Source: Paramacrobiotus metropolitanus (lineage: Eukaryota; Tardigrada; Eutardigrada; Parachela; Macrobiotidae). From it: DNA of 64,000 bases. Below are positions 3,009-63,850 of this stretch, in pieces. The position numbers were made by a program, and so were the translations under genes. The notes beneath the pieces were generated by a model, which did not search any database, was not told the DNA's origin, and was given only the letters and a program-made list of their open reading frames with translations. Position 1 is the first letter of the stretch. Each line of letters starts with the position of its first letter. The stretch is from assembly GCF_019649055.1 (NCBI RefSeq), contig NW_026570302.1:310001-374000 (forward strand). Direction: 5' to 3'.

Positions 3009-3380
3009 ATGACAGAAGGCACCGGCCGACTCCAAAAACGAGTGGACACTTTCTCGACCGAGAGCGTCTACCTTAGGCAGGAGTGCAGCAAAAGAACCGA
3101 AGTGATAGAGATGCTACAGCGACAGCTTCTGCTGGCAAAAAAAGAAGGAACGTGTACGAGGAAAAGCTCAAAAAATCTCTGGTCGAGTCAACCGAGTTCA
3201 TCGCATGAACCATCAAAGTTCTGAAGGAGCAGAGGGATGTATCTTTGAAGTAAGTCAACCTAGAACAGGAACTGGGAACAACGATACACCGGACGGAACA
3301 GCTTGAGAAACGAGTAGCCGGCTTGGAGACGAATCTGACGACAGCCCGGCGTCGCGGAGTGCTACTCCCCGGCCCCTTGG
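3009..3380 (+). pseudogene. Decayed coiled-coil ORF, probable LINE ORF1 N-terminal part
   Basis: Reading plus-strand frames with a switch near 3150, the translation is rich in heptad-like Leu/Glu/Lys/Gln (for example RLQKRVDTFS, then EEKLKKSLVES, VLKEQRD, LEQEL, QLEKRVAGLE) and has in-frame stops. ORF1 proteins of many LINEs carry such coiled coils for trimerisation. The decay contrasts with the long open ORF2 downstream, so this part may belong to an older element. Confidence 0.4.
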
Positions 3381-5662: not shown

Positions 5663-5721
5663 AATCTAAAACGAACATCAGATGTAATCGTAAACGCCTG
5701 TTATCTCAAGCAGCCATTAAA

Positions 5722-27627: not shown

Positions 27628-30301
27628 ATGTGGCATGAAGGCGAAGTCTACCGCCCCAACAGTGTGGATGTTTTGGGCGACGACGGCCTGCTTCGTTACG
27701 GACGAGTTGTCGGTATCGCTGACAGCGGACTTTTCATCGACTTTTAAGCCCCAGTCGACGGTGGAGCTGATTCCCTTCGACAGCATCTACCTGCCCGCTG
27801 CGACGAAGCCTCTACAGACTCACGGCAGCGATCAGCCTCAGATTTTCGCTGCCGCCACGATCGCTGTGGAAGTGTTAGTACGGGAAACTGCCTCGGGTCC
27901 CTGGATATGGATCCCGGGTGAAATGCGCAGCCTGGTGGACTACGAAGTCCCCAGTTCGTACGGTATGGCAGTGGTCCAATGGTGGAATAAAATTAAGTGC
28001 CAGGATATTGTTCCCGTGGAGCGCATCCGCTGGAGGACCCCCGGTCCGGGGGGATGGTGGGGCGCGGTGGGTCGACCGGTTCCTCCGCAGTTCGTATCCC
28101 TTCTCGCAAAAAAGTGTGTGAAGATGTTTGAGGGTGCCGTAATTACTCAGCCTGTAGCCGTAACCAGAGGGGCTTTTTTTATCTGCAGTTTTGCGTTGCC
28201 CGAAGGCTTCGAATGCTCTGTTGTGAAAAGTAATCTGCAGTCTGTAAACTGTCTACTGTCCTCCGACTGCATGCCTTTTTGTTGTATCGACATGGCGTAT
28301 GGACGGTTGTGGCGTATACAACGTCGATCGTTGGGCGGTGAATATGATACCCCGGAGGCCCATGATATTCGTGTGAATGTAAGATGTGGGTGATGATACA
28401 TGTCGTAAATTGCTGTTCACAACTTGCAGATTTGGTTACAAATACTTCGAACAGAACTTATAGCTTCCCTGTCATGTATTATGGGAAACAAACTAAAGAA
28501 ATCGCTTCTAGATTCCCAAACGGTCAGTTCGGTAATTATTTCTTTTTGCCCAGGAATTACTGCAGTCACTGCGGTCGCGTTACCCCAGCAGATGGACGCT
28601 AAATACACCAATGCAGATCGACAGTTCGGAGTCTTCCGCAACGTGGGTGGGCGAATTCCCTGCACTCTCAGTGGAACTTTGGCTGGAAGTGTTCTCCCAC
28701 CTAGACACTCGGGAGCAGAACAGATTCCGTGTGGTCTGCTCAGCATGGAACTGCATTCTAACTACGCCGATTTTGACAGCCAGCATTGTGCTGGTAACAG
28801 GTGACTGCGGCATGTCGGAACTACTGGGATCGGACGACATTGGCATAACGTTCGACATCTCGAGTATACTTGTCCGTTGGCTGTCGTCGACGGTCTTCCA
28901 TAGTCTTCGCCCATCCACGAAGCACATTATTTTGTCTGACCGGCAGCGAATGCTGTACACGAGCGATTTGTTAAACGTGGTGGATGTGATGAACTACGTG
29001 GGAAAACATAACACCGGCATCCGGTTTTCGGCGATCTACTAGTATGCGATTTCTCCGCTGTGCTGTGTTGTGTCTCTTTTCATCTATGGCTGCCGGAGCT
29101 AAGTTCTGCTCACGCCGCCTTTATCGCATTTCTGGGAGACGGTTCAGCTGCAGTTGGGCGCTGCTTTCGGATGTGCGCTGTATGATGTACTGGAAGCGAG
29201 TTTGTCGGTGCCGGACGAGATGCAGCTGGGGAAGTTGTCCAACTGGCTGAAGGCGGCCATGCATGATGGGAGCGTCGACAATGATAAACTTTGCCAGGTG
29301 AATCTGCGATTCTACTGCAGTATCAAATCTCAGTTTATATATTTTCACCCTTTTATTGTCATATTGGTTGGTACAAGATATTCGATAGTTCAAAGTTTCA
29401 CGCAGATAACCAAAACAAATATCATTTAGCAATAAAGCAACATTTTGGCGCCGCAAAAGAAGTCATCTGCATCATTGCATGAACATCAGAAAGGGGTGAA
29501 AAATGTGCAAATTCTAGATGATGCCAAATCCAAAAGTCTTAGCTTAGCGGATTTGTTGTTAACGCCCAAAGTATGGAAAACAGGCTAAATGCTTCTGCTC
29601 TGTGGTGGTGGTATAAATTTCGTCATTAAAATTAGTAAGGTAGTACAAATTGCCTTATTTTCTTTATTTGCAGTATTACAACGGAAGGCTGATGATGGGC
29701 CTCCGTTTACAGTGGATTGGCTACACGCCGCGCCACGACGCACAATTACCGAAAGTGGTGGTCAAAGATGCAGACGTTACACAGTTTAGGGAATTACAGG
29801 AATCAGGAAGACGAAAGGTCATTCCGAACGAACGATCGAACGAACGAAAGAAAGAAAGCTTTCACATCGAAGTTTATTAGCAATTGAAGAAGTCCGGGTG
29901 GCCGCGAAGCAGCACCGTGCCCGACTGATTTCCGTAAACTGATTCTCATCTCCACAGAAGCTAGAAATTCGGAACACAGACCGCCCACAGGCTGCCGATT
30001 ACATCATCGGCTTTATCACTGACCAATCAAATAAAACATAATTATTTGAATTCATAACACTCTTGCTATAGTATGTTGGTAAACCTCATAATTTTCCGGT
30101 TGGAGTGGACGAATTGCTGTACATAACGGATTATGTCCCTTGCAGGTTCTGTGTCCGACGCAGACAACTGATCCTCGACCGGCGTCCAACTTCCGCGGGA
30201 AGAAGTGGTGCGTTGATGGGATGAAAGACGTACAGTTGGCAAAATTATCTCCTTTTGCGCTGTATTTTCTTCTGCCACTGATACTTCCCCTGGTTCAGTG
30301 A
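27628..30301 (+). pseudogene. Tudor/F-box family pseudogene E
   Basis: Exon 1 (27628-28378) starts with ATG and the usual NSVDVLGDDGLLRYGRVV, but the frame hits TAA at 27745-27747. Two single-base losses (near 27745 and near 27760) explain the shift, after which the Tudor and KH0-like parts are open (VEVLVRETASGPWIW; VPVERIRW). Exon 2 starts at 28554 (ELLQSLRS) with the F-box LSVELWLEVFSHLDTREQNRFR. It reaches TAG at 29040-29042 after FSAIY, and much of the following region is missing; homology resumes only at LGAAFGCALYDVLEASL and ends at the donor after 29297. Exon 3 (30146-30301, VLCPTQTTDPRPASNFRGK) is intact. Confidence 0.8.
29820..29862. repeat. Short tetranucleotide repeats (GAAC/GAAA)
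   Basis: cgaacgaacg and gaaagaaagaaag runs inside the long intron between exons 2 and 3 of pseudogene E. Simple sequence. Confidence 0.7.
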
Positions 30302-30649: not shown

Positions 30650-33107
30650 ATGTATGTCGTACAGTACTTTATAGCTGAAAAGTTGCGCTACGGACGCGTG
30701 GTGGATGTCGCTGACACCGGGCTCTTCATCGACTTTTTCTGTCCCAACCGCCGACGGGAATTAACTCCCTTCGGTAGTATTTACCTTCCCACTGCCGTGA
30801 GACCGCTGGATCTGGATAAAATTGAGGAACTTCATACTGGGTCCGTGGAGGTGCTGATCCGTGAAGCTCCCCGCGGTCCTTGGATGTGGGTCCCCGCTGA
30901 AGCCAACATTCTGGTCAGCCACGAACATCTGCGCATGTACGGTATGGTGGCTGTCTCCTGGTGGAATAAAATGGAGCGGCGCGACATTCTGCCCCTGGAA
31001 CGCTTACGCTGGAGGTACGCGCGACCCTCTGGATTTTGGGGCGTTTTTGGGGCAGTTCGTATCCCGTCTCATGGGCCGTTTTATGGGGAATCTGGAGAAT
31101 AGTGTGTCTCAACCCGTGGCTGTGGAAAAGGGAATGTTTTCCAGGTGGAGCGTGCAATTACCGGAAGAATACGAGCACGCAGAAGTCTGGAACGACCATA
31201 CACGCTTGAATTTTAAACTGATGTTTTCCCGCAGACCCTTCTGTTGTGTGGGTATTGTGGATGGACGTTTGTCGTTTATCGAACGCCGCTCATCAGCTGA
31301 CCAAGGGGCGTCCGTAGCGAAATTCCGGGCGTTGCATTTGCCGGAAACTCTGGTGAGATTCTTTAAAATACAGTCTTCCAATACTTCTATCCGTTGCAGG
31401 GAGAAAAAATTGGCAGGTTTTCTGATTTTTTGCTAATGTGCCGGACACTCATGGATAAAGTTTTCTTCGCTTGATTTGTGCTTTATCCGTAATATTCACA
31501 CTTATTTGGCAGCATAGTCATGCGTTTCTGGATGAAATGCAACCACAATACCGACGTAAGCTGATAGTGATTCCACCCGAGCATACCGCCAGTCCAGCGG
31601 ATGCTTTCCGTGCGCTACCGCGGGAATTGTGGATGGAAGTGCTGTCCCACCTGGACACACGGGAGCAGAACCGACTGCGCGCGGTGTGCTCAGCATGGGA
31701 CGGCATCGTGGATACGCTGACGGGCAACATTGTACTGTGGATGGGAAACTGGGGTACGTCGCACGTTTCACCTGTTTTCATCAATTTGTATCTGTTAACA
31801 AGTTTGGCCAGGAACTGAGGGCTTGAAACGGTAAAGGTACAGGAAGTGCGCACTAAGCGCAATATTGGCATCAGAACGATGCCACTACACTAGCGTTATC
31901 ATCGATTTTATGCAGTACCTGCAATATTAATGCAACTGCTGCTGTAAGTTTACTAGGAGTAAAACATCACCGAAGTTATGATAAATATGGATATATAATA
32001 TCTGACGTGCACCAGCCATGACTAATTCATAGTCAGGCAAAAACAATTGCCGTGGCCCGCCGCGGTATGGAGGTTGTAACCCATGAACGTGCGCTCTTCG
32101 CTGTCTTTATGAGTGCAACATACTTACATAGTGTAAGTATGTTGCGCTCTCTTTATGCCGCCAATTATACGCCCACAATTTCTCGACAAGCTTGTACATT
32201 GCTGTACTGACAACAACAGAATTTCTCCATCAGGTGACCATGCTCGTACTATTCACCACGGCATGATGTCGACGGTCTTCAACTGTCTGAGCCCATCAAC
32301 GAAATACATTTTCCTGGCCGGTCGACATTCAGCAGTGAACGTGGAGGATGTCTTTAAGGTGATGGACGTGATCGACTACGTTAGCAGGTGTGATACCGGA
32401 ACGTGGTCCGGGATCCGCTTCACAGCCATCTAGCTGGTGGATTTCCCGTGTTTTCTGTCACTGGGCAAGCTGGCAGCGGACGGTGGACAGTGCGCTGTGC
32501 ATCAGCCGGACGAATTCATGCTGCGCCCCGTCAAACGCTTCTGTAACATCGAAAGCTTCCTCAGTGAATTCATGAAGATCTGCGGCGCTCTGCCGTGCGA
32601 TAGCCTCCGGCTGGTCCGCTGTCCGTTCACTCTGTCTGCTCGAGTTAACGAAAATCGCCTCTTCCTGACATCTGCACAGTCGCTGCTTTCGATGACGTGC
32701 CGGTTAACGTTGGGTGAGGGTTTCGGCTGCGCGCTGTGGAATGCGGTGGACGGAAAATTGCCCGCGCCGGACGAACAACAAATGAAAAAGCTGTCCCGAT
32801 GGTTGGCTGTAGGCAAGAATAAGAAGCATAGGAAAACCGTGCGTCAGGTAATAATCCGATATTGTGCATGTATTTTCTTGATTTTTCATTACTTGTAACA
32901 TGAGTAGTCCCTATTGCCAAAATATCGAAATGCGAAGACCTTTTTTTGCAGATTTTATGTGCGACACAAACCTCTGATCCGCGATCGTCGTCCAACTTCC
33001 GCGGGAAGAAGTGGTGCGTTAATGGGATGGGAAATGTGCCGTTGGAGCAACTTTCCCGTATCGCGCTGCATTTTCTTCTGCAGCTGTCGGATGCGTCAGC
33101 TCGGTGA
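30650..33107 (+). pseudogene. Tudor/F-box family pseudogene F
   Basis: Exon 1 (to 31352) has lost its promoter and first ~26 codons; by comparison with G about 370 bp were deleted, fusing spacer to RYGRVVDVADTGLFIDF. A second small deletion near 31030-31055 shifts frame between the second Tudor-like repeat and the KH0-like part. The F-box exon is split: 31513-31753 (H.HAFLDEMQ…LPRELWMEVLSHLDTREQNRLR) and 32234-32847, phase 1 between them. The second piece carries one in-frame TAG at 32431-32433, where the paralog G has TAT. Exon 3 (32952-33107, ILCATQTSDPRSSSNFRGK) is intact. It forms a tandem duplicate with G. Confidence 0.82.
32104..32157. mobile_element. 38-bp hairpin insertion with 8-bp target duplication
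   Basis: A 38-bp foldback (32112-32149; arms gcaacatacttaca and its exact complement around tag) is flanked by tctttatg on both sides (32104-32111 and 32150-32157). The paralogous intron of G has a single tctttgtg and no hairpin. An 8-bp duplication is what hAT-type elements make, so this is likely a tiny hAT-derived MITE. Confidence 0.8.
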
Positions 33108-33851: not shown

Positions 33852-35708
33852 ATGTGTTTTTGCGTTTGGACGTGCTGGCCGTCGACACACGGGCATCTTG
33901 GATTTCTCGTATGGAAATTAAATTAATATTATTGCAACATTTTTGGTATTTGGTAAATTGCGTTCGGCTAAATTTTTTTCCTTGTTTTTTCGTATTTATC
34001 TGCTATCTTCTCCGCTAAGGTCCAACGACTGTCAAAGCACCGAGGAAAATCACTCATGCACCATTAAATTTAATTAAATATTGGGCTTTGCTGTAAGTAC
34101 TTATCGGGTGTTGTCAGTCTGTCAATACTTTTGACCGTAGAGTCGCCATGGGCATAAAAATACCGTTTGTAACAAGAAGTGCACACAACTTGACAGTCAA
34201 AAGTTAAACGATGCTCCTGCAGATACATCTCATCAGCTGACTTACAGTACTTATTACAGATACTTCACGGCTGAAAAGTCGCTACGGAAGGCCATGGTGA
34301 AACACTTGTTGAGAGTTGGAAAGAAAAGTCAAAAGCTGGCACTCACAACGGTATAGTACGGTCTGCCCACCACCACGGTGTGTTGGCTGCAAAGCAAAAG
34401 CAGTCTGACTGCGAACGAGCGAAAGAGAAAATTCCCATTGGCTGGATTAAGAAATTTCGTTACTTACTGAAATTTTCGTTTCGACTTCTGAGACATATGT
34501 GCAGGAACTAGAAATCGTTAAACGTTCTTTCTCAGCTAATACAGCATCTTTGTACGGAGAGCAACCGATTATCGACTGCCATGCAGTGGAACGATATGAC
34601 CGTGATCTACCAGCCCAATAGTGTGGACGTCTTAGGGGATGACGGCGTCCTGCGCTACGGACGCGTGGTGGATGTCGCTGACACCGGGCTCTTCATCGAC
34701 TTTTTCTGTCCCAACCGCCGACGGGAATTAATTCCCTTCGGTGGTGTTTACCTTCCCACTGCTCTGGAACCTCTGGATCTTGATAAAATCAACGAACCCC
34801 ATGCTGGTACTGTGGAGGTGCTGATTCGCGAAGCCCCCCGCGGTCCGTGGATGTGGGTCCCGGCTGAAGTCGACATTCTGGCCAGCCACGAGGATCTGCG
34901 CATGTACGGAATGGTGGCTGTCTCCTGGTGGAAGAAAACGGAGCACCGCGACATTCTGCCTGTGCAACGCTTACGTAGGAGGTACGCGCGACCCTGTGGG
35001 TGGTGGAGCGCTGTGGGTCGCTCTGCTGTTTGGCAGTTTGCAACCCGTCTCATCGGCCGTTTTATGGGGAATCTGGAGGGCGGTGCGTCTCAACCCGTGG
35101 TCGTGGCAAAAGGCATGTTTTCCAAGTGGAGCGTGCCATTACCGGAGGGATACGAGCATGCAGAAGTCTGGAACGATCTTAAACGCTTGAATTTTAAACT
35201 GATGTTTTCCTACGAACGCTTCTGCTGTGTGGGCATTGCGGATGGACGTTTGTTGTTTATCGAACGCCGATTATCAGCTGAAGAGACGACATCCGTAACG
35301 GAAGCCCGGGATTTGCGTTTGCGGGAAACTCTGGTAAAATTCGTTCGTTTCCAGTATCGCATTATTGAGAAAAAATTGGCAGATTTTCTGATTTTTTGCT
35401 AGCGGCCAAAAACTCTGGGATGAAGTTTGTTTGCTTGAGTTTTGCTTTGTCCGTAATATTTGCACTTATTTGCAGCATGATCACGCGTTCCTGGATGAAC
35501 TGCAACTAGATTACCGACATCAGCCGACAGGGAATCCATCCGCGCATATCGACAGTCCAGCGGATGCTTTCAGTGCGCTACCGCGGGAATTGTGGCTGGA
35601 AGTGTTGTCCCATCTAGACACTCGCGAGCAGAACCGACTGCGTGCGGTGTGCTCGGCATGGGACGGCATAGCGGATGCGCTGGCGGCCAGCGTTGTGCTG
35701 TGGATGGG

Positions 35709-38563: not shown

Positions 38564-40663
38564 CATACGGCAGACTTATGCAACGTTGCCTTAAAGTGGG
38601 CATGTGTTTACGGTTCCGTGCATCCAATCCATGGACGCAGCCTTATCTCGCAATGACACATGCAGATAACTCACACATGTCGAACCGTTCGACATGACGA
38701 TGAATTTGTGTTTTGAATTCTTATAGTGTTTGTGAGCTTTATTGTAACAAATATCCATGGATCCTGTACTGTACTGTAATAATCCGAAAAATTACAACAA
38801 ACTGAAACAGTAGCCACGATGCCCGACGGAGCCGAAAATCCACCAGCATGATGGACCGGTCGGTTCCACTGCGGGGTGTGGTCGTGTCGCACGCCGACAT
38901 AAGTTGTGCTAGTCAACATTCCGCTTTGTAGTGACCGTTCTTTATAAAGGCTGGCAGTCCGATTAATAAACTCTGTTCAATCAGTCAGTATGCCAGGTCT
39001 GGATTAAGGCTTTGGCGGACTTCGGCCTGGTGGAACGCTGCCAAGGTGCGGGAGGAGATTACCGTTATTATCCAGTGCGGGAATTAGACCCTGCAAATTT
39101 ACTGGCACGAGTCCTGGAAGCTGGCTGCCGACGTTAGGGTTGCAGGAGGCGGGAGGTTAGGAGGGTCAGCACTGCTGCACACGATGAAAAGGAGTAGAAG
39201 GGCCACACGCTCCATAGCAGCGGGAGTCGAAGAAATGTACTCGTTTAATTATCGTACAAGAACGCGCCAACAGAGATATTTGCCAACACCTGATGGTAAT
39301 AAGACTTAATCATTCACCTGTATTCATGCTTTTTCTGCTTCTTTTATGCGAACACTTCTCAAAGGCGGCAAAAGCCACAGAATTGTGTACATATGTGATT
39401 TATGATTAGTAGATCACGAGTAACATGGTGAAGAGCGGCCTACTAATTTTACCGAGAATGACACTGCATTAAGTTGGTCTGCAGCTGTCACATTCTCCGG
39501 TCTAGTGATGCTCTGCTGGTGTCGGTATTTACTAAATGGATGCGTTTCGGTGTCACCGTAGGGAATATCACGGCAATATTTCGGAGTTTCACTGTAGTTT
39601 GATAAATTCAACCCCGGTAGGTTTGTCGCATAATTTGTTTTTTCCTTTTTCACTATCAGCTCTTTATTAATAATCAATGCACAAATCAGGTGGAAGAAAA
39701 ATAAACACATTACATTATTCACAACAGCAAAACTTCGTTTAAACTATCCACTCCGTCCATCGTGCCAATGATAGATGCTGCATTTCCGCGCTGAATTTCC
39801 AGCGATAGCCGTTGACGCAGAATTTCATGCGATCGACGCTCTCCCGTATGCTGCTGCAGTCATTTGCCCAACCCTTTCACAATGGCGATAGCCGACGGGC
39901 CCACCCATTGACCCATCGTCTCAAAGGCGATCGGTTTGCGGTTTTTCCATTTTTCTGTCTACGATCTTCCTGGCAGTTTTGTATCTTGTTTTTAACCATG
40001 ACAGGCTAATTAACTTTCCCAGGTCGCGATTTTCTGTGAAGTCTACACCTACACTGATGCGTCTGTAGATTTCGAAGCACATGGGAAAATGAATAATTTA
40101 TTAAAATACCGGTATAAGGTTTTCATTTAAGTACGTACATGCATTAGGACGATGTACAGTACGTTCGTTTTTGAACCTGCCAAGCGCGATGCGCTGTTCA
40201 GTTGGACACAGGGTTCAATTTAATCTCCAATTGCACTTTTAATTTCGCTTAATGCTAAATTTAGCTTTTTATGGATTAAGAAGCGGGATTTCAGAGTTCT
40301 CGGTACACTGAGGTTTTTCTTCGTAAAAAACGGCGACATACAGTACCGTGTGCCATGAGGGCGGACTGAAAACTGCTGATTGGACCGTTTTCCCGGCCCT
40401 AGCAAATTTCGTGCGACCGGTTTGATCAGCAGATTAATTCGCGAAGTACAGCTTTCAGTCGAAGAAGCACAGCCATCACATAGCGCACTCGCACTTGCGA
40501 AGTTGTTTTTCTGTTCACTTTATATTCTTGCACGAAAGAATTTTGCGGTTCACACTTCGCAGTTAGTATTAGGGTATACTGTTGGCAGTAAAACTCCTTC
40601 GACATTTCGATTATAGATTTACACGCTTGTCGGTTGTCGAAACCATAACGTGCTTTTGCCATA

Positions 40664-41062
40664 ATGGGTCCTAAACCGAAGAAGTTGAAGCCGTCGGATC
40701 AAGCAGACCCCAAATCCTTTAGGATCCAGCTGCGCATCGGCGGTTCCGAGGTGTCCGTGGACAAAGCTGCTCTGGCGGCCGAATCAGCGTACTTCGCCAC
40801 CATGTTCGCGGGGAACTTCAAGGAGAGCGTCTCGAACGCCATCGAACTCCAGCAACCGGCCAACGTCTGCCTGCAAACGCTCGTCAAATTGGTGGAGAAC
40901 GTGGGCAAGAAAGACTCGGAACTGCCCATTGAACAGAAAGACGCCGTTAAAGTGTGGATGGCTGCCAAATACCTGCAAATGGAGAAAGTGGAGAAAACGG
41001 CTGCCGGAATCTTGGATAAGCAGATGGAGCGACCGAAGTGTGCCTACCGCTTGTGGCGGTAG
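40664..41062 (+). pseudogene. BTB (POZ) domain of a kelch-like protein, truncated
   Basis: ATG at 40664; 132 codons. Residues ~20-120 form a BTB domain (IQLRIGGSEVSVDKAALAAES, AYFATMFAGNFKES, then AVKVWMAAKYLQMEKVEKTA). BTB-kelch proteins are Cullin-3 ubiquitin-ligase adaptors. The frame ends early: the last codons (KCAYRLWR) fall in a 10-bp hairpin (41041-41065), and repeats of aaaaagcgcaattaggag follow, so an insertion has probably replaced the BACK domain. Degenerate kelch repeats follow at 41295-41783. A short BTB-only protein could still be made. Confidence 0.75.
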
Positions 41063-42621: not shown

Positions 42622-43756
42622 ATGCCGATGCAAGTGTACCAGAGCAACTGTGTGAATGTTTTGGGCGATGACGGGATGCTTCGTTACGGGAGAGTGGTGG
42701 ATGTCGCTGACGACGGGCTCTTCATCGACTTTGTATGCCCCACCCGAAGACGAGAACTCACTCCTTTTGGTAGAGTCTTCCTCCCCACTACCACAGATCC
42801 TCTGCACATGCGTTACTGCGAGCAGCCTCGTACTTTCCCAAGCGCGCCGGTCCCCGTTGAAGTGCTGATACGCGAAACTCCCTCTGATTCATGGATTTGG
42901 GTCCCGGGTAAAATGGAGAGGCTGGTGAACTATGATGTACCCACTATGTATGGTGTGGCGCTTGTCCACTGGTGGAATAAAAGGGAGTGTCAGGACATTG
43001 TTCCCGTGGAACGTATTCGCTGCAGGATTCCGGGCCCAGGGGGATGGTGGGGTGCTGTTAGTACTGTACCTGCGCAGCTTACATCTCCTCACTTTGACCC
43101 GCTGGAGGGGAATGTGAAGTGCGCTATCCTTAGCCAGCCTGAGGCCGTGACCAAGGGAATGTTTTCGAAGTGGAGCGTGGCATTGCCAGAAGATTGTGGT
43201 AGTTCTGTTAACGGATACTTCCTGCAGCGCTTGAACACAGAGCTGAGGATACGAGATCATCCGTTCTGCTGTGTGGATGTTACGGATGGGCGATTGTGGT
43301 GCATTCAACGTCGATCATCAACGAAGAACACAGCGGCAGTACCGGAGACGGAGTTCCGTTATGACGATATAGCCGATTATAAGGTAGGCAGTGGCACTGA
43401 CAATTGCGCCGCTTTCTGTGCAAATCGGTTCGTCTTTGCAGGGGAGTTTTGACCGGGTACGACGTTCCTGGGAATTCTGTGCTCGTACGAATACACATAT
43501 CCAGATAAATGTCTGCTGAATGCATCAACGCAAAACGATGATCCAGTGGACGAAGTCAATGCGATGCCGGTGGAAATGTGGCTGGAAACGTTTTCCCATC
43601 AGGACACATGGGACCAGAACAGGCTCCGCACGGTGTGCTTTGCATGGAACTCTCTGCTGAATTCGCCGGTCTTGACTGCTGACCTGGTGCTGAGGACGAC
43701 TGGATATAGCGGTACGCTAGAAACCTCGCGTACATTTCTTCCTTGCATGATGTCGT
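42622..43756 (+). pseudogene. Tudor/F-box family pseudogene H, 3'-truncated
   Basis: Exon 1 (42622-43383, 254 codons) is open: CVNVLGDDGMLRYGRVV, VEVLIRETPSDSWIW, VPVERIRC, then a KH0-like part MFSKWSVALPEDCG ending DGRLWCIQRRS. The acceptor at 43440-43441 leads to a frame that stops within 26 codons; a neighbouring frame gives the F-box MPVEMWLETFSHQDTWDQNRLR, so a frameshift separates them. Homology ends abruptly at the MMS codons near 43756, where repetitive DNA begins. The rest of exon 2 and exon 3 are not found before gene I. Its upstream region resembles that of the BTB-kelch gene. Confidence 0.78.
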
Positions 43757-46113: not shown

Positions 46114-48460
46114 ATGGATTCGCACATCTTATTCATGATGTCGCGAGGGATCTACCTGCCGAACAGTGTGGACATTGTGGGCGACGACGGTCTGCTGCGC
46201 TATGGCCGAGTGGTGGACGTAGCTGAGAATGGGCTCATGATTGATTTTCTATGCCCCGGCCAAAGACAGGAATTCGTCCCTTTCGGTAACATCTACCTTT
46301 CCACTGCTAGGCAGCCATTGGAGATGCCGGAAAGCGACACGTTTCCCAGCGCACGAATCGCCGTGGAACTGCTTGTACGAGAGAGTCCCTCCGGTCCCTG
46401 GATGTGGATCCCGGCTGAAATGACCACTCTGGTGAGCCACAAAGTCCCCGGCACGTACGGTATGGCGATTGTTCATTGGTTTCACGAAATGGAACGCCAT
46501 GATCTTGTTCCCGTGGAGCGCATCCGTTGGAGGATCCCGGGTCCGGGCGGATGGTGGGGCGACGTTGGCCGACCAGTTCCTCCGCAGTTCGTCACCTGTC
46601 TGGCTGATGATAGCGTGCAGCATGTTGAGGATGCCGCGCTTACTCTACCCGTGACCGTGGCCAAATGGACGTTTTCCAAGTGCAGCGTAGCCATTCCAAG
46701 CGGATCTGAATGTTCTGTTGTCCGGGACCACCTCTCAAGCTTCAATGAGGAACTGTTGAGGCGGAAGGAACCGCTGTGTGGTGTGGGCGTCGCGGATGGA
46801 CGTTTGTGGCTTATTGAACGTCGATCGGTAGCCGAGAAAAAAACCGTACCACCGTCGGACTTGAAGGACCGTTCTCCCCGGTTGCAGGTAGCGTCTCTTT
46901 ATCGTGTGTCTTTTTATCAGTTATTCGTGATTCGGGAGTGCTTTGCAGGGCATCATTAACGACGCACTGAGTTCACTGTGTTTCCTCAGCCAATGGATGC
47001 AGAATAACTCACCTGTAGCCAGAAATCCAGTGCATGACGCCGCAGTGCTGCCGACGGAAGTTTGGCGGGAAGTGTTTTCGCATCTGACGACGCGGGACCA
47101 GAACCGACTGCGCACGGTGTGCGCGGCATGGCACGGCATTGTGGATTCGCCGATCTTAACGGCAAACCTTGTCCTGACGACGGATGACATGCACCCACCA
47201 GGCGACAGCTGGCATGATCTTGACCACCACATGATGTCGACGGTTTTCCATTGTCTTGGCCCCTCAACGAAACACATTATTCTGGCCGGTCGGTTGAGGG
47301 ACGACTGTTTTTTGAAAGTGGTTGATGTGATCAGTTACGTGGCAAAGCGCCTGCCCGGGATCCAGTTGTCCGCGATCTATGCCGTGGAACACGAGTGGCA
47401 TTTCTGGTTTGGTCGGGTTTGGGGCGGGTGCAGTCTGCATCATCCGGATCCCCTGTATCGACAGATTGAACACCCTCTTTGCCGTCGCCACGGCTGGGCC
47501 CCGAATGGCATTAACGAGTTCATTTTAGCTTGCCGCGCTCTGCCGTGCAGCAACATACGATTGGTCCGTTGCGCGGTCCGGTTTACCATGGACTTGGACT
47601 ACTTTGATGATATTTTTGTACCGCCGTCATGTAACGCAACGGTGCTGACGACACGGGTGATGCTGGGTGAGGACTTTCCATCGGAGCTGTGGAATGCGCT
47701 GGATGGGTGTTTGCCAGTGCCAGACACGCAAGAGATGGACCAGCTGTCTGACGCGCTGAAAGATGCCAAGCTGTCGGAATGGGTGACAAGGGTGACGGAT
47801 GACCGAAGTGACAAAATCAGCGTCGATACTTTATGCGAGGTACGCCTTTGATATTTCCTTTCTGTTCCATGATTCTTTGTTTTTCATTATCTGTTCTTAT
47901 TACATTAAAGTCTCACTACGAGTTTTCTAATTTTTTACGATTTGTATAACTCACTACGAGTTTTCAGGTTTACTCAGTTTTCTTGACTGTTTTACTAAGA
48001 TCGATAAACTAATATTAATTGTCCCAAAGACGAAATGTCTCGGCATCGAATCGACCTCGCGGCGTTATGTCCCGCCGTGAGATGAGTTTGCTGCGAAATG
48101 TCTGTAACTTAATGTTCTGCGTCTAGTTGTCCTCGGCGAAATGCGGCGGCGCCTGTAACCGGCGAAACCGTCCGGACAAATGAATCGTCCGCCGGACGCT
48201 TTTGCCGGTTACAGGCGCCTCGTAGCTTTATCTGCAAGGTTCAGACAAACGTCGTAATGTCCCGTGAATGCGCTAAATCACTTTAATCACCTACCCTATT
48301 ATTGTCATGTTTTCAGGTGTTGTGTGCGACACAGACAGGTGATCCGCGACCGTCCTCTAACTTCCGCGGGAAGAAGTGGTGCGTGGATGGGTTGGAAGGC
48401 GTACAGTTCGCACAGTTATCCCGTATCGCGCTGCATTTCCTGATTCAGCTGGTTTTGTGA
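46114..48460 (+). CDS. Tudor/F-box family gene I, intact
   Basis: Best complete member: 602 residues from exons 46114-46887 (258 codons), 46949-47839 (297) and 48317-48460 (47 plus TGA), all phase 0. Residues ~16-65: first Tudor/Agenet-like repeat (NSVDIVGDDGLLRYGRVVDV…VPFGNIYL). Residues ~85-150: second (VELLVRESPSGPWMW…YGMAIVHW…LVPVERIRW). Residues ~185-245: KH0-like (WTFSKCSVAIPSGSE…VADGRLWLIERRS). Residues ~292-335: F-box (LPTEVWREVFSHLTTRDQNR). A family-specific region follows (MMSTVFHCLGPSTKHIIL, then CRALPCSNIRLVRC). The C-terminal module begins VLCATQTGDPRPSSNFRGK and contains LSRIALHFLI. Predicted to bind SKP1 through the F-box and recruit a target through the FMRP-like head. It forms a tandem pair with J. 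Confidence 0.82.
48149..48220. mobile_element. Hairpin insertion in intron 2 of I
   Basis: ggcgcctgtaaccggc (48149-48164) and its exact complement (48205-48220) with an imperfect inner stem. The same intron of J lacks it, so it inserted after the duplication or was lost from J. Its gtaaccg and GC-rich arms recall the hairpin at 2331. Confidence 0.75.
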
Positions 48461-51241: not shown

Positions 51242-53511
51242 ATGGATTCGCACATCTTATCCATGATGCCGCGTTGGATCTACCTGCCGAACAGTGTGGA
51301 CATTGTGGGCGACGCTGGCATGCTCCGCTACGGGCGAGTGGTGGACATAGCTGACGACGGACTCATCATTGACTTTCTGTGTCCCGGTCAAAGACAGGCA
51401 TTCGTCCCTTTCGGTAACATCTACCTTCCCACTGCTAGGCAGCCATTAGAGATGCCGGAAAGCGACGAACCCATTACCCTTCCCAGCGCACGAATCCCCG
51501 TAGAACTGCTTGTACGAGAGACTCCCTCCGGTCCATGGATGTGGATCCTGGCTGAAATGACGGCTCTGGTGAGCCACGAATACCCCGGGACGTACGGTAT
51601 GGCGGTTGTCCACTGGTTCCACGTGAGAGAGCGCCAGGATGTTGTTCCCGTGGAGCGCATCCGCTGGAAGATTCCGGGTCCGGGAGGATGGTGGGGCGCC
51701 GTTGGCCGACCAGTTCCTCCGTAGTTCATAGCCTGTCTGGCTGATGATGGTGCGCAGAATTTTAAGGATGCCGTCCTTACTCATCCCGTGGCCGTGACCA
51801 AATGGACGTTCTCAAAATGCAGCGTTGTCATTCCAAGCAAATCTGAATGTTCCGTTATCCGGGACCACTTCTCAAGCTTCAATTTGGAACTGTTGAGGCG
51901 GATGGAGCCGCTGTGTGGTGTGGACATCGCGGATGGACGTTTGTGGCTGATTGAACGTCGATCGGTAGCGGGTATCACCGAACCAACGTCGGCCCGTTCT
52001 TCCAAATTGCAGGTACTGCCGAGCGCGCGATGACAACGCGTCTTTGTAGCAGTTATTCGTGATTCGGGAATTCTTTGCAGGGTATTATTAACGAAGCACT
52101 GGATTCACTGCGTTTCCTCCGCCATAGGATGCGGGATAATTTAGCGGTCGACGGGAATCCGGTGCATGACGCCGCTGTGCTGCCGACGGAAGTGTGGTTG
52201 GAAGTGTTTTCCTATCTGACGACGCGGGACCAGAACCGACTCCGCACGGTGTGCCCGGCATGGCACTGCATTGCGGATTCGCCGATCTTGACAGCCAACA
52301 TCGTCCTGGGAACGGGTGACATGCACCCGTCCGACAACTTTTATGAACTTCTCCACCGCATGATGTCGACGGTCTTCCATTGTCTTGGCCCTTCAACAAA
52401 ACACGTTATTCTAACCGGTCAGATGAGTGAGGACTGTTTCTTGAAAGTGGTGGATGTGATCCGTCATGTCGGCGAGCGTCTGCCCGGGATCCAAATGTCC
52501 GCGATCTTTGCCGTGGAACACCAGTGGCTTTTCTGGTTTGGTCGTCCAGAGTTTTGCGGCGGGTGCAGCCAACATCATTCGGATCCACGGTATCGACAGA
52601 CTGGACACCTTCTATGCCGTCGCCACGGCTGGGCCCCCAATGACATCAAGGAGTTCATCCTAACGTGCCGCGCTCTGCTGTGCAGCAGCATACGACTGGT
52701 GCGTTGCACGGTCCAATTTACCATGGGCTTCGACTGCTTCGATATGTTTGTACCGCCGCCATCGCGTAGCGCAACGGTGCTGACGACACGGGTGGTGATG
52801 GGTGAGGATTTCCAGTCGGAGCTGTGGAATGCGCTGGATGGGAGTTTGCCAGTGCCGGACGCGCGGAAGGTGGCCAAGCTGTCTGCCGTGCTGAAGGATG
52901 CCAAGCTGTCTGAATGGGTGACGAGGGTGATGGATGACGACGCAATTGGCGTCGATACTATATGCCAGGTACACCTTCGACATTTTCTTGTTGTTCCGTG
53001 ATTCTATGTTTTTCAATAATTTCTTCCGTAAACTGTAATCAGTTTCACTACGAGTACGATTTGTCTAACTCACTATGATTTTTCAGGTTACTCAGTTTTC
53101 CTTAGCTTTCTTGACTGTTTTACTAAGATTAATAAATTAGTTATCCCAATGACGAAATGACACGGCATTGAATCGGCCTCGCGGCGCTATGTCCCGCGGT
53201 GAGATGAGGTTGCCGCGAAATGTCTGCAGCCAAATGCTCTGCGCTTAGTTGCCTTTGGCGAAATGTCGTTGTGTCACACACCTTTATCCGCAAGATTTAC
53301 GTAAACTCTGTGATGTCTCGTGAATGCGGTGAAATACTTTAATCACCTATTATTTCCTTGTTTCCAGGTTTTATGTGCGACACAGACAGGTGATCCGCGA
53401 CCGTCGTCTAACTTCCGCGGGAAAAAATGGTGCGTGGATGGGTTGGAAGGCGTACAGTTCGCACAGTTATCGCGTATCGCGCTGCATTTCTTGATTAAGC
53501 TGGTTTTGTGA
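51242..53511 (+). pseudogene. Tudor/F-box family gene J, one in-frame TAG
   Basis: Tandem copy of I. Exons 51242-52012 (257 codons), 52081-52968 (296) and 53368-53511, phase 0, with the same splice sites as I. The only break is TAG at 51722-51724, in the VPP-Q-F context where I has CAG. The frame is open on both sides, including the KH0-like part (WTFSKCSVVIPSKSE…DGRLWLIERRS). The F-box is LPTEVWLEVFSYLTTRDQNR and exon 3 is VLCATQTGDPRPSSNFRGK. The upstream part alone would encode the two Tudor-like repeats as a 160-residue protein. It is either a very young pseudogene or a readthrough/short-isoform gene. Confidence 0.82.
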
Positions 53512-54880: not shown

Positions 54881-57489
54881 ATGTGGAGTGGAATCTACCA
54901 AGCCAACAGCGTAGATATCTTAGGCGATGACGGCCTGCTTCGCCATGGACGAGTAGTTGACGTGGCCGACAACGGGCTTTTCGTCGACTTCCTATGTCCT
55001 AACCGACGACGTGAACTCGTTCCCTTTGGCAGTATCTACCTCCCCCATGCTTATACGCATATAAATGTTTTTGATGAAAATCGGCTGAAACATGTCGAGG
55101 TGCTGATACGGGAATCTCCTTCCGGTCCGTGGATGTGGATTCCCGCTGAAATTGCCGCGCTGCCGCGTCTCGAAGTGCATCATTGCAGTCGATACGGTGT
55201 GGCCCTTGTCCATTGGTGGAATACTGCGGAATACCGGGATGTTGTCCGCGTAGAGCGCATTCGTTTGGGTGGCTGGTGGGCAGGTGCAGGGCGGGAAGTT
55301 CCGCAGCAGTTTTTACCTTGCGGTTCCGCACAGCCCCATAATACTGGTCAAGATGGAGTTCGTTATGTACCGGTGGTCGTGACCCCATCGATATTTGAGA
55401 GACGCTGTGTAGCCCTGCCGGAGCGGTTTCGAAGGTTTCCTGCTGAAGAACTGCTGGGCCAGTTGACATGCAGTCTGATGAGCAAGAGGCAGCGACTAAG
55501 TCTTGTCTTTGTGGAGATCACGGATCGTCATGTGTGGTGTATTCAGCGTATGTCCTCAAACAGTGGCATCAAAGTTACAAGCCAGAACCGGACCGATTGG
55601 CGTGTAAGTCAGGAATTCTTGTTTGGGCCATTGAGCATGCACTCAGTTGCACTGTACTCACGATAGCTTTACCACCAGGGCAAAAACAGTTAGCCATCAG
55701 GCGACAGTGGGCGTGTACGCTGTAATGGTTGTACCCGCTGTATCACGATACCGAAACCCCGAAACCGGTGGCATGGCAATTCGCCATGCTGCCCATGCAT
55801 GATCGACATTTCGCTTTCTGTGAATTCGTTGGCCGACGCTTTGCCGAAGCCATCTCGACGACCGAAACCTTATTAGCAGTATGACAGGTTTTTCGGTTTC
55901 CAACACGATCTTTCTTAGTGGTTATTTTCTTAGTCTATTTTGGGAAGTTCTGTGTGTTACATAAAAAGTAATGTCGTAAGCAGGTTATCATTCAAAAAGC
56001 TGTCGATCATCCATATGTCCTCAGTCAATGAATCTTGGGGTAAATGTTGCCTGGCAGCAGGATAGTGATTCAAACATATCAAATCAAAGCAACTATTGCA
56101 CCATGCTGACTATTCTGCGGCTGCAATCTGCATTATCTTATTTAGAGTAGCTTTTCGCGACTTTAACGAGTCGGTCTCTTTCGGAATGGATCAGTGTCCC
56201 TTTTTGCCACCAACAGTGTTCATACTCCTGATAAAACTGTTAGTCTTTCCACTGATAAGTACTGCTGTTGTCTTTGCAGTGGACTGTTTACCAGCTTCTG
56301 TCTGCACTATTGGGATGTGTGACGGTTATTCTCACGCCGAGTTCACCTTGTCTGCCGGATAATACATTTATGCTGCCAGTAGAATTGTGGCTGGAGGTGT
56401 TTTCCCATCTGGACACTATAACGTAGAACCAAGTCCGCGTGGTATGCTCGACATGGAACCAATTGGTCGATTCGTCAGCGCTCATGGCCACGATCATTAT
56501 CGGTAGCGATTGGATGGTCGACGATAGCGCAGAATGGTCGTGGAAGGAGCACGACCAGCTTATGCGCTGCGCCTTATTGACCATCGTCAAGTGTGTACGC
56601 CCCTTAACGCAACACCTCGTCGTGGAGGACCGACAACGCATATTGAAGACGGAAGATTTCTTGCAACTGGCCGATGTCATCGATTATTTAGAAAAAAGCC
56701 ATGCCGGAATTCGATTGTCGACGGTTTGCTTGGTAGACTTCAAATTCAGCCTGGCGCTTAGCTGCAGCCATAGAAACACTGGAAACATCGCGTGCTCTCT
56801 GCATATGCCATCTGCGCCGACGGAAGACGCTTCTTCTAGCACGCTGCACGATTTCATCGTAGCATGTCGCGGTCTTCCGTGTAATACCGTGTGGTTAAGC
56901 TCGTGTACCCTCCATCTCGACTCTGGTGTTCTGGCCAAACGGGGCAGGTCATTCTTTCACCCGGAGATTACGGTTGATTTCGGTCTGGCTCAACTGACGA
57001 CAAGGAATGATTTTGAAGGTTCGCTGTGGAACGCGATTGAGGCGCGTTTATCCGAGCTGGACGAACTTGAGCTGGCCAGGCTGTCCAACTGGTTGATGAC
57101 TCTAGTGGACAACTCGAACGACACAATCAACACTGCATGTTGGGTAAATCGCATACAGTTTCGCATCGTATGCACATCCGATTCGGGAAATTCCGTAACG
57201 AATGTGCGCGTATTTCGATATTTCAGTTGTTATGCAACGCGGATTTGTTCCGCCGCCGGTAAAGACGAGTTATGTCAGCTCTTTGCACACCTTGCAGGTA
57301 TTATGTGCGGCTCATACAGCGGATCCGCGTCCGTGGTTGAATTACCGCGGCAAAGCGTGGTGCATGGATGGACTGCAAGATGTGCAGCTAGAAAAGTTGT
57401 CCCGTATTGCGCTGCATTTTCTCAAGCAGTTCAGAGAGTCCTTGGATACTTGCAGCCTTTCATCATCCTCAGGTTCCAGCTGTGGTTGA
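54881..57489 (+). pseudogene. Tudor/F-box family gene K, one in-frame TAG
   Basis: Exons 54881-55603 (241 codons from MWSGIYQANSVDILGDDG), 56280-57143 (288) and 57298-57489, phase 0. The head has both Tudor-like repeats (VEVLIRESPSGPWMW; VRVERIR), with the linker after VERIR shortened in frame, then a KH0-like part (FERRCVALPERFRRF). The F-box LPVELWLEVFSHLDTIT is followed by TAG at 56424-56426, where relatives have CAG (TQNRLR). The rest is open (LPCNTVWLSSCTLHL; VLCAAHTADPRPWLNYRGK), with a longer Ser-rich C-terminus. The single stop falls within the F-box, so a truncated product could not bind SKP1 normally. Sister of L. Confidence 0.82.
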
Positions 57490-59118: not shown

Positions 59119-61115
59119 ATGTGGAGTATCTACCAAGCCAACAGCGTTGATATTTTGGGCGATGACGGTCTGCTCCGTCATGGACGGGTAGTCGACTTGA
59201 CCGACACCGGGCTCTTGATCGACTTCCTCTGTCCCAATCGACGATGTGAATTTATTCCATTTGGCAGTGTGTACCTTCCCACTGCTACGCAGCATCTGCC
59301 TGTTCATGATATCCTGCTATATTTTGGTGCTGATTTCTTAATCCCTGTGGAGTTACTGATGCGGGAGCCCCCCTGCGGTCCGTGGATGTGGGTCCCGGCG
59401 GAAATTATTGCTCTGCCGCGTTACAAAGTACACGGTCGTCGGTACGGTATGGCTCTCGTTCGTTGGTGGAATATAACAGAAGGTCGGGATTTTGTCCGCG
59501 TGGAACGCCTGCGCTGGAGGATCCCGGGCCCGGGCGGCTGGTGGGCCGCAGTGGGTCGGGGAGTACCACAACGGTTCTTGTCGGCTGGCACTACAAGCGC
59601 CCATCATAACCTTCGCTGGCCCTTGTACAGTCTGCCCGTGGTCGTAACCCGGTGGACATTCGAGAAATGCAGTATGGCGTTGCCGGAGCGATTTCGGCTC
59701 TTCAATGCCGCAACATTGCTCCAGCAGCTGAACCGTGAACTGATCCACGGAAAATGGCGTCCGAGTTTCTCACTTGTGGAGATTGTGGATGGAATTGTGT
59801 GGTGTATTAAGCGCCAGTCCTCTGGTCAACGTACAGCACAGAATTCTGAGAATTGGACCGATTGGCGTGTAATTAAGAAACCACCTTGCTAAACTCTAGA
59901 TTGTTCAAATTCCTGTTTATTTAACATATTTATTGTATTTGCAGTGGACGGTCTCCCAGATATTGTGTGCAGCACCAGGATGTTTACCCAATGTCCCCGG
60001 GCCGAGGGCACCGACTCACCGCGGTCGTCTGCCGGTCGAATTGTGGTTGAATGTGTTTGCTCATCTGGACACTCTGACACAGAACCGGCTGCGTCTGGTC
60101 TGCTCATTATGGAATCGCAGTGTGGATGCACCAGCTTTAATGGCCACCATTATTATATCAGTAGGGAGCAACGCTATGGCTAGTTTGAAGAACTGGGACC
60201 GACTTATGTACTGTATGGTATCGACCATCGTCAGATGTGTGCGCGTCTCATCGAAACACATCGTCGTGGTGGATCGAGCGCGAGTGATGGACACGGAGGA
60301 TCAATTGAAAGTGGTCGATATAATCAACTACGTTGGAAAAGACAACGTCAAAATACGCTTGTCAGCCGTCTATTTGGTGGGTTTTCAGTGCCCGCTGGTT
60401 CTAGGCTGCAGCGTAGAACGTCTTCACAACGATGCGTGTTGTCTGCACACTCCTCATGCGCCGACAGAGGGCGATTGGTTTTCGTGGTGGAAAAAAGGCA
60501 CCCGCCGGCTGCAGGATTTCATCGAAACTTGTCGCGGTCTTCCATGTAATACCTTGCGATTAAGCCGCTGTATTCTCATTCTTGGCTCGGGGATTCTGGC
60601 TACGCAGCGCTTTCACCCGGAGATCACAGTTAATATCAGCAGTGCCCGGCTGATGACCGGGGATGACTTCGAATGTTCGTTGTGGAATGCTCTGGAGATG
60701 AGTTTACCTGAGCTGGATGTGGATCAGCTGGAAACGCTGTCCACCTGGCTGAAGGCTCCAGCTGTCAACATGACCATGGATATCACTGCAGCATCTCGAG
60801 TAAGTGACAAATTGCTCACAATCGTGGAACTTTCAGGACGAGAATCTGCTTAAATTTGTACAGTTCTTAAAGTTTGTGTAATGCGGGTCGGTGAATGTAC
60901 AATATATACTTAGCTCTATACTCTATACAGACCAACCCAGCCGTTCGCTTTTGTTGCAGGTACTGTGTGCGACTCAAACAGCGGACCCACGCCCATGGTT
61001 GAATTACCGTGGGAAGGAGTGGTGCGTAAACGGTTTGACGGATTTACTGGTAAAGAAATTGTCGCGTATTGCGCTGCATTTCCTCGTGCACTTTATGAAG
61101 TCTTCGGTTCGTTAG
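59119..61115 (+). CDS. Tudor/F-box family gene L, intact
   Basis: 586 residues from exons 59119-59868 (250 codons), 59945-60799 (285) and 60960-61115 (51 plus TAG), phase 0. I chose the ATG at 59119 (MWSIYQANSVDILGDDG) because it aligns with K; a TATA-like ctataaaat lies ~45 nt upstream. Tudor-like repeats: residues ~8-60 (RHGRVVDLTDTGLLIDF…IPFGSVYLP) and ~80-150 (VELLMREPPCGPWMW…VRVERLRW). The KH0-like part is WTFEKCSMALPERFRLF…VDGIVWCIKRQ. F-box: LPVELWLNVFAHLDTLTQNRLR. The C-terminal region has MVSTIVRCVRVSSKHIVV, LPCNTLRLSRC and the final VLCATQTADPRPWLNYRGK. All splice sites are GT/AG. Predicted SCF adaptor. Confidence 0.82.
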
Positions 61116-61876: not shown

Positions 61877-63850
61877 CTACGCCGAATAATCGTCGTGCCA
61901 AGGTAGCGGAGCCACAGATTCCATGAACTGAAGGAGAAAATGCTGCGTAATACGGGAGAGGTTCTTCAGTTGTAGATGCATTAAGCCGTTTGTGCACCAC
62001 ATTTCTCCTCGGTAAAGCGACGATGGACGTGGGTCAGTTGGCGTTGTCGCACATAAAATCTGCAAACACGGTACCAGTACTATAACAGGTACTCTGTACA
62101 TATTATTACTGAGCGCTTCATCAAGACATACCAACTTTACCACGTTTATTTAAACATCCCTATGCGTGTCCCGTAATTTTTATCGAATTTTTGTAGGTAC
62201 AGATAGAAGGTTTTTGGCGCAAGGTTTCGGAAAATTTAGATCGATATTAGGCATGCATCAGGCATGGCCATGCCTAAGTGCGCCTAGGACGCAAGTAGCG
62301 GGGCGGGGCGCCCCGTCGTGTATGTTCGGTGTAAACCGTGAATTTTTGTTTTTGCAATTACCGCTGAGTTAATGCGACAGAAATTATGGGACAAGCCTGT
62401 ACAGGTTCCAACTGAAAACTACAACGACGGTTGTTCCTTGACTTCCTTCCAAAGCAAACGACGTAGCCCGGGCATCTAATGCTTCCGAATTGGTTGAAGA
62501 GATATGGATTTTCAATTTACAGCAGATTCAATCAGACAGGTTAACATCTAGAAACAAAAAGATGACTAACATTTCAAACGTACCCGACGCGCTTTGGTGC
62601 TTTGAATATCCAGATTATTCGCGATGGTCGCCAACTCTTCAGACAGTTTCTCCAACTTATCCCCGTCCAGAACCGGTAAATTCCCGTCCAGGGCATCCCA
62701 CACGGCACATTCAAAATTTCCATCCAACTTCAGTTGGGTATTCACGAAAACCTGCGATAGGGTCAGAGTCAGCGGAATATACGTGTATCTGGCGATTTTG
62801 GCGGATTTCTTGTAGCTCCGGATGGACAGCGGAACACGACAGCGGATCAGGTGGAGGCTGTCGCACGGAAGTGCGCCGCACGTCCCAATGAAATCATCGA
62901 GAAGGATTTCCCCCCAGTCGCCATCTAGGATGCTTGGTGCCGCTGGGTCAGGATGATGCACACTGCAATTGCCGGTGAAATCCATCTTCCCGAATGACAA
63001 AGCACATCGCAGTTTCCTCAGGTAGATCGCTGACAACCGGATGCCGGGATTACGCTGGCCAACGTAAATGATCACATGCAGCACTTTCAAGAAGTCTTTC
63101 ATTTCCAGTATTCGCTGGCGATCGGTCAGGATAATGTGTTTGGTTGATGGGCGAAGACAGTGGAAGACCGTCGACATCATGCAGCGAAGAATGCAGGAGA
63201 AATTGGATGTTCCGCTGCCTTTGACTGAAATCATAATTTAATGACGTTTTTTAAGCATTTTAATCTTTAAATCAAACCGGGTTTTGAGCGTCAGAAATGC
63301 TTTGAAATAAGGAATGTAGAACAAAATATTTTCTTAATAATATATTATTCAAAAAATATATAGAGTATATTAAGATATTCTAGAAAAAAGTTTTAGAAAT
63401 TCATATATTATTAAAAACAATTTTAGAAAGAAAAATTGATCAAATCGATCAAATCGGCATTTAATTTGATAAAAATACCGTTCAGTATAAACTACTATAA
63501 TAGCTGTTGAAAGTAACGATAGAAGTACATCAGTAATGACCCGTTTCATTGCATTTCATTTCAAATCATTTTAAGCGGTCCACAACTGTTAGCGAGTCAA
63601 CCCTACCGCTGCCATCCGTCCCAGCTATAAGGCAATCAGTCAAAGCAGGCAAATCCACGATGCCATTCCATATACAACAGACCGCGCGGAGTCGGTTCTG
63701 TTCGCACGTGTCCAGATGGGAAAACACCTCTCGCCATAATTCCACCGGTACAGCTCGAAATTCGTCCACTGGACCGTCGTTAGGTGTGAGCGCAATCAGT
63801 TTTCTTGTGTTAGGGTACAGGGGCAGTAAATCCAGCACCAGCACAAAGTC
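61877..63850 (-). CDS. Tudor/F-box family gene M, exons 2-3 (5' part outside)
   Basis: Minus-strand copy whose Tudor-like exon lies beyond 64000. Exon 2a 63850-63607 (F-box VPVELWREVFSHLDTCEQNRLR), intron 63606-63225, exon 2b 63224-62584 (MMSTVFHCLRPSTKHIIL; LPCDSLHLIRCRV) and exon 3 62059-61877 (ILCATTPTDPRPSSLYRGE…LSRITQHFLLQ, ending in TAG). The split of the F-box exon is phase 1, at about the place where F and G are split. An acceptor nine bases further upstream (63859) is equally possible. No break is seen in the part present. Confidence 0.75.

Follow-up and report, generated by a model that had tools for sequence, protein, structure and literature searches.

An FXR-type Tudor-Tudor-KH0 head is repeatedly paired with an F-box in the genome of the tardigrade Paramacrobiotus metropolitanus

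The predicted gene described here lies at positions 46114–48460 of a 64,000-nucleotide stretch of Paramacrobiotus metropolitanus DNA (assembly GCF_019649055.1, contig NW_026570302.1, positions 310,001–374,000, forward strand), which we call the window. The first exon of this gene encodes a head that resembles the N-terminal Tudor-Tudor-KH0 region of FMRP, FXR1, and FXR2, and the second exon encodes an F-box. The two modules lie side by side in the other copies judged in the window and at most head loci sampled across the genome. On balance, we favor a model in which the head-F-box proteins are substrate receptors of SKP1-CUL1-F-box (SCF) ubiquitin ligases: the FXR-type head would dock on a shared class of targets, and a faster-evolving C-terminal domain would pick the substrate.

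The target gene is predicted to consist of three phase-0 exons whose joined product comprises 602 amino acids. Its parts, all on the forward strand, are as follows.

46114–46887 (+): exon 1, 258 codons, FXR-type N-terminal head (open frame and GT donor, AlphaFold model, Foldseek and VIA matches, hhalign alignment to the genome's own FMRP)
~46162–46302 (+): Tudor1, within exon 1
~46354–46530 (+): Tudor2, within exon 1
~46657–46827 (+): start of putative KH0, within exon 1
46888–46948 (+): intron 1, 61 nucleotides, GT..AG
46949–47839 (+): exon 2, 297 codons, F-box followed by a C-terminal domain of ~220 amino acids without a Pfam match
47048–47158 (+): F-box in exon 2 (Pfam PF00646, PF12937)
47840–48316 (+): intron 2, 477 nucleotides, GT..AG
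48317–48460 (+): exon 3, 47 residues and stop, repeat family D2

The F-box exceeds the curated Pfam cut-offs of both PF00646 (34.8 bits, cut-off 20.5, E 1.3e-8) and PF12937 (34.6 bits, cut-off 24.3, E 1.7e-8). An earlier note on this DNA, made from the sequence alone, had placed an F-box at the start of the second exon; the F-box itself stands, and its position is corrected to residues 34–70 of that exon. The motif strings and coordinates given there for the target gene were confirmed when the sequence was re-read, save for small corrections: the target reads VPFGNIYLS and SVAIP, and other copies read IYLP or SVALP. At E ≤ 10, Pfam matched nothing in exon 1 and nothing in exon 2 outside the F-box. 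The same searches found no KH1-KH2 after the head (exons 1 and 2, with the F-box as sole match), no FBA or FTH domain after the F-box (exon 2), and no JmjC, CXXC, or PHD domain (exons 1 and 2). The AlphaFold model of exon 2 is poor (predicted local distance difference test score (pLDDT) 61, predicted template-modelling score (pTM) 0.59) and has no Foldseek match in the PDB at E ≤ 0.001; we therefore do not name the fold of the C-terminal domain. A leucine-rich repeat reading of this domain was considered from its alternation of helices and strands and is not claimed. In intron 2, an inverted repeat at 48148–48219 (+) was noticed by eye and is perhaps a small mobile element.

The head was modelled with AlphaFold on an alignment of nine window heads. 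The model has a pLDDT of 81 and a pTM of 0.82, with weak loops at ~102–104, 156–158, and 164–167. When it was compared to the PDB with Foldseek, all ten matches at E ≤ 0.001 were N-termini of FMRP, FXR1, or FXR2 that run from Tudor1 into KH0, in agreement with the tandem Tudor fold that had been proposed for exon 1. The best match was 4ova_C (E 1.2e-8), and the first family outside the FXR proteins, the plant SAWADEE domain, appeared at E 4.9e-3. The VIA alignment to 4ova_C (Z 10.2, root-mean-square deviation (rmsd) 7.2, 170 aligned residues) places model residues 7–230 on residues 2–175 and thus takes in both Tudors and most of KH0. Across FXR chains, VIA Z values range from 7.7 to 10.2. KH0 appears in the model as strand-helix-strand-strand, aligned up to FMRP residue 175, and its last helix falls outside the modelled stretch.

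Profile comparisons point the same way. The head profile aligned by hhalign to the genome's own FMRP (locus L001) with a probability of 96.9 and an E of 2e-10 in a single pairwise comparison, which covers 137 columns and stops where KH0 begins; the profile of 34 heads gave E 3.8e-10. Against PDB sequences, FXR1, FMRP, and FXR2 supplied the first five of seven matches of the nine-head profile at E ≤ 10, all weak (E 0.013–0.36). A search of the genome with Pfam Tudor_FRX1 recovered FMRP first and then three other loci above the cut-off. Weaker matches fall inside heads at C65:323715-323840, C65:314925-315053, and C118:253760-253885 (E 0.03–1.8), and the head of L045 scores 1.3e-4, under the Pfam cut-off. 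The canonical FMRP at L001 is a separate locus with one uninterrupted frame of 630 codons that runs from the Tudors through KH0 and on.

Several results weigh against this identification of the head. TM-scores to FMRP chains are modest (0.36–0.38 by query, 0.40–0.43 by target); together with the large rmsd, they indicate that the head model does not reproduce the overall domain arrangement of FMRP. Pfam finds nothing at E ≤ 10 in any of the six window heads scanned, and KH_9, the Pfam model of KH0, matches canonical FMRP alone over the genome. In the FMRP rows of the nine-head profile search (4ova, 4qvz, 4qw2), the best stretch pairs an insert of the head with Tudor2 and departs from the register of the fold; single-domain E-values are weak, ~4 and above. 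The 34-head profile is not FXR-specific in the PDB, where it ranks mitochondrial uL24m (0.039) above FXR1 (0.24). The putative KH0 of the head, which the earlier note had recognized as a KH0-like segment, is supported by the modelled fold and the VIA alignment, not by Pfam.

The uL24m match would also fit a head derived from another Tudor/Agenet branch, such as the plant AGDP, SGF29, or UHRF1 type, with the FXR match being convergent. The plant proteins AGDP3, AGDP1, and ADCP1 have tandem Agenet chains whose VIA Z values, 7.1–8.2, are level with those of the lower FXR chains (7.7–8.6). Among 50 VIA rows, however, model residue 230 is reached by three FMRP chains only, all of which hold KH0. 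The gap to the next Foldseek family, the hhalign match to the genome's own FMRP, and the coincidence of Tudor_FRX1 matches with heads, weak as these matches are, likewise speak for an FXR origin, and we regard derivation from another Tudor branch as highly improbable. With the N-termini of FMRP, FXR1, and FXR2, the head shares the order of domains, a modelled fold that extends over both Tudors into a putative KH0, the TF-x-K opening of that segment, and a VERIR-like end of Tudor2. The proteins differ in what follows: FXR proteins continue with KH1, KH2, and an RGG tail, whereas exons 1 and 2 of the target contribute an F-box and a C-terminal domain. The target also carries ~40 residues inserted between Tudor2 and KH0, and its KH0 is too divergent for KH_9.

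The window contains 12 heads, 11 of which have their downstream side inside it. All 11 are followed by an F-box on the same strand. The copies other than the target are listed below.

51266–53508 (+): nearest paralogue; head 51266–51964 with one internal stop, F-box 52177–52308, exon 3 53368–53508
42622–43692 (+): paralogue; head 42622–43317, F-box 43564–43692
59119–60799 (+): paralogue; head 59119–59820, F-box 60029–60157
54881–57143 (+): paralogue with a stop in the F-box; F-box 56370–56423 / 56427–56501
34596–35694 (+): paralogue; head 34596–35270, F-box 35578–35694
30680–31737 (+): paralogue with a broken head frame; head 30680–31051 / 31053–31292, F-box 31615–31737
27643–28793 (+): paralogue with a broken head frame; head 27643–27744 / 27746–28330, F-box 28665–28793
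19323–20849 (−): paralogue; head 20229–20849, F-box 19938–20066
15554–17185 (−): paralogue; head 16547–17185, F-box 16175–16303
11928–13538 (+): paralogue; head 11928–12542, F-box 12762–12890
47–706 (−): head of a further paralogue, with the F-box side beyond the window edge
62584–63748 (−): F-box and C-terminal part of a further paralogue; F-box 63635–63748

For the last copy, a head lies on the same strand just beyond the window (contig C82:374531-375226).

The pairing extends further than could be seen in the window, to the genome as a whole, which spans 169.8 Mb on 533 contigs. A telomere motif ascribed to tardigrades and the TTAGG(C/G) motif had no match in this genome. With the target head as query, the best 150 of 1064 candidates were scored and 150 matches listed, the weakest at 4e-21. 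A second query, the distant head of L055, produced 152 matches at E ≤ 1e-5 when 150 of 643 candidates were scored; two of these rows are parts of one locus. As judged by eye, the two lists share five contigs and have no overlapping place, so that at least about 300 head loci are present among the matches listed; this number includes broken copies and possible assembly duplicates (rows of equal score on two contigs). From the 150-match list we sampled every fifth row, and 29 of these 30 heads are followed on the same strand by an F-box within 2.2 kb. The sole sampled head without an F-box in the stretch fetched is L031. Sampling in the opposite direction took every tenth row of 150 F-box matches listed from 1080 candidates. 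At 12 of these 15 loci, a same-strand head lies no more than 3 kb upstream, and most of the sampled F-box loci therefore belong to the head-F-box architecture. Ranks 60 and 90 (L057, L060) have no head upstream, and rank 80 (L059) could not be judged because its contig ends there. Rank 3 (L014), outside the sample, has a head.

Other observations count against so general a pairing or against a functional family. Four of the 12 window copies look broken (two frameshifted heads, one head with a stop, and one F-box with a stop), assembly errors being possible. The F-box matches of ranks 1 and 2 (L013, L012), also outside the sample, lack a head in the 1.2–1.5 kb upstream. Around the Tudor_FRX1 matches other than FMRP (L042–L052), an F-box at E ≤ 1e-3 was found at just two of 11 loci (L045 and L051), and the three loci over the Tudor_FRX1 cut-off fall among the nine without an F-box in the stretch. 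SKP1 has not expanded alongside the family: SKP1-family sequence (PF01466) is present at four loci in the genome. At L050 there is no head match either, and L046 and L052 contain possible halves of an F-box, seen by eye only. The Tudor_FRX1 branch may have longer introns or other partners, or may lie outside the head-F-box family. L002–L004, L042–L044, and L046 form a separate branch that has the strongest Tudor_FRX1 scores outside FMRP and no F-box in the stretch; Tudor1 occupies a short exon of its own, and in some of these loci the TF-x-K, KH0-like start is on a later exon. At L057, a frame of 553 codons (1641–3299, −), perhaps a mobile element, lies upstream of the head-less F-box.

Head and F-box could in principle belong to two neighboring genes that were duplicated together and are transcribed apart, a reading to which we give almost no credence. 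Of the 54 head-F-box pairs at the loci fetched, seven (L005–L011) have a single open frame that spans both modules. The number does not give a rate, since these loci were picked mainly for long frames, and the joining stretch may include a short intron that is read through; at L010, 52 nucleotides separate the two matches. Among the other 47 pairs, the frame of the F-box includes an ATG ahead of it in 28, as independent transcription would allow, whereas 19 have none, a few of them due to a broken frame (for example, L019 and window 56370). The phase-0 GT/AG boundaries of the target are a further point against two genes.

The two parts have also diverged together. In a Mantel test on 32 of the 54 pairs (the frames of the other 22 were too short), distances between heads correlate with distances between F-boxes (Spearman 0.36, permutation p 0.0005) and between the parts after the F-box (Spearman 0.33, permutation p 0.0005). 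The nearest relative is the same by head and by C-terminal part for 16 of the 32 genes. We take this correlation as support only, because kinship of tandem copies inflates the test. Coding constraint was estimated for one gene pair, the target and its neighbor 5 kb away, whose in-frame stop was skipped. The ratio of nonsynonymous to synonymous substitution rates (dN/dS) is nearly equal for head (0.36) and F-box (0.35), reaches 0.47 over the remainder of exon 2, and falls to 0.04 for exon 3; all three exons thus evolve like coding sequence. In this pair, exon 3 (48317–48457 versus 53368–53508, +) is far more constrained than the rest. As judged from sequence, the one-frame copies, the F-box frames without an ATG, the shared orientation in 29 of 30 sampled loci, and the correlated divergence favor a single gene and speak against separate transcripts for the head and F-box exons.

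Conservation was counted over the 34 complete heads that reached E < 1e-30 at nearly full length, a filter that removed weaker and partial ones. The mean frequency of the top residue is highest in Tudor1 (0.74), followed by Tudor2 (0.55) and KH0 (0.44). W90 is invariant in all 34 heads. W114, conserved in 30 of 34, lies near the position of FMRP Y96, with a register uncertain by ~2 residues. The position aligned to what we take to be F32 of FMRP is F in 23 heads, L in nine, and M in two. In the part of PMC5430443 drawn on here, the authors conclude that the tandem Agenet domain of FMRP recognizes methylated RGG/RG motifs, with partners sensitive to F32L and/or Y96L. The same part questions histone binding by this domain and cites an earlier nuclear magnetic resonance study in which methyl-lysine was bound and methyl-arginine was not. 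The invariant W90 and the F in 23 heads are points for the favored model; leucine or methionine at the F32 position in 11 of the 34 heads, along with the unsettled Y96 register, is a point against it.

Overall, the median identity between pairs of copies is highest in the F-box (48%), lower in the head (35%), and lowest after the F-box (26%); this last part was taken as far as its open frame runs and may contain an intron, which lowers its identity. Within the window, eight other heads are 30–52% identical to that of the target, and eight other exon-2 pieces are 72, 37, 36, 34, 29, 28, 27, and 24% identical to its exon 2, though they hold or abut the F-box.

The gene structure, the FXR-type fold of the head, the F-box, the genome-wide repetition of their pairing, and the coding constraint were computed here; the SCF model adds the following steps. 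By analogy with known families, the F-box would bind SKP1 and therefore CUL1, recruited through SKP1, and ubiquitin would be transferred to the target. The Tudor-Tudor-KH0 head, homologous to the N-terminus of FMRP and the FXR proteins, would dock the ligase on a target class common to the family. Such a class may consist of methylated or RGG-containing proteins, or of ribonucleoprotein particles, as proposed for the FMRP module. The variable domain after the F-box may then select the individual substrate, a suggestion that draws on its relative divergence. Since the head varies less than what follows the F-box, it is likelier to be a shared dock than the source of diversity.

An alternative, in line with the earlier note's adaptors that read methylated proteins, RNA-bound complexes, or foreign factors, is that the head itself is a diversified substrate reader and each copy recognizes its own methylated, RNA-bound, or foreign protein, in the manner of an immune repertoire. 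A very large, tandem-arrayed family with broken copies and variation at the F32 position would suit such a reader. So would the analogy to nematode F-box expansions: according to the part of PMC8665587 drawn on here, 73 of 95 C. elegans paralogue pairs have dN/dS peaks above 1.5 in the C-terminal, substrate-targeting part. Against it, the head, Tudor1 above all, is better conserved than the part after the F-box (with the possible intron in that part noted above). Moreover, dN/dS of the head is 0.36 in the close pair and has a median of 0.38 when the 41 head pairs (of 561) whose dS stays below 1.2 are taken together, values that apply to the whole head region. We consider a diversified head unlikely.

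Less probable still, in our view, is a role for these F-box proteins outside the proteasome, in which the head would place the protein on messenger ribonucleoprotein particles or ribosomes and contact with SKP1 would serve assembly or regulation. Well-studied F-box proteins are mostly SCF receptors, and nothing specific in the sequence indicates another function. The unexpanded SKP1 family would agree with such a role, as would contacts of the FMRP N-terminal module with RNA-binding proteins such as FUS (PMC5430443, in the part drawn on here).

Within the SCF model, it is tempting to speculate that the N-terminus of FMRP was captured into an F-box gene and amplified to hundreds of ligase receptors, whose conserved head would lead to methylated ribonucleoproteins or chromatin and whose variable C-terminal domain would choose the victim, in innate defense or ribonucleoprotein quality control. 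Exons 1 and 2 would then meet inside KH0, with the last helix supplied by exon 2. This fuller scenario is possible and somewhat doubtful. Viral contigs contained no match to six peptide patterns of the target head, a comparison made with a single head that detects close relatives only.

Two neighbors in the window deserve mention. A frame of 926 codons at 5644–8421 (+) resembles a non-long terminal repeat retrotransposon, with endonuclease and reverse transcriptase domains. The frame at 40649–41062 (+) resembles, by eye, a BTB domain protein and is perhaps an adaptor of the cullin-3 type beside the F-box cluster.

As far as we are aware, the nearest parallels among known proteins are partial. 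KDM2A, KDM2B, and FBXL19 combine a chromatin- or mark-reading module with an F-box on one chain, as the target family does; they differ in using JmjC, CXXC, and PHD domains rather than Tudor-Tudor-KH0, and they are few genes. UHRF1 carries a tandem Tudor on a ubiquitin ligase, and this tandem Tudor is among the weaker structural matches to the head. It belongs to another Tudor family, however, and UHRF1 is a RING ligase with PHD and SRA domains and no F-box. The Caenorhabditis F-box families FBA2 and FTH resemble the target family in having expanded within their lineage, to as many as 1426 F-box genes in a single species, and in a divergent domain after the F-box (PMC8665587, in the part drawn on here). 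The F-box lies near the N-terminus in those families according to the same part, unlike in the target, whose post-F-box part in exon 2 has no Pfam match; the word tudor is absent from the text of PMC8665587. Judged by title and start of abstract, open-licence PMC papers describe no tardigrade F-box family and no FXR-F-box fusion. The words F-box, FMRP, and tudor are absent from the text of PMC5531438, as are F-box and tudor from that of PMC8277472. Each module is known by itself. A protein that unites the two, and a family of such size, did not turn up in the searches of open-licence PMC papers, in line with the earlier note, which had called the combination apparently undescribed.

If true, the head-F-box architecture would account for a large share of the animal's F-box repertoire and show that an FXR head can exist outside the RNA-binding setting of FXR proteins. 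The FMRP N-terminus has been studied intensively, and its ligands are still disputed (PMC5430443, in the part drawn on here); hundreds of natural variants of this N-terminus, with an F-box alongside in most of those sampled, would permit comparative ligand mapping. The family would also be a source of natural proteins in which FXR-type recognition is coupled to ubiquitination.

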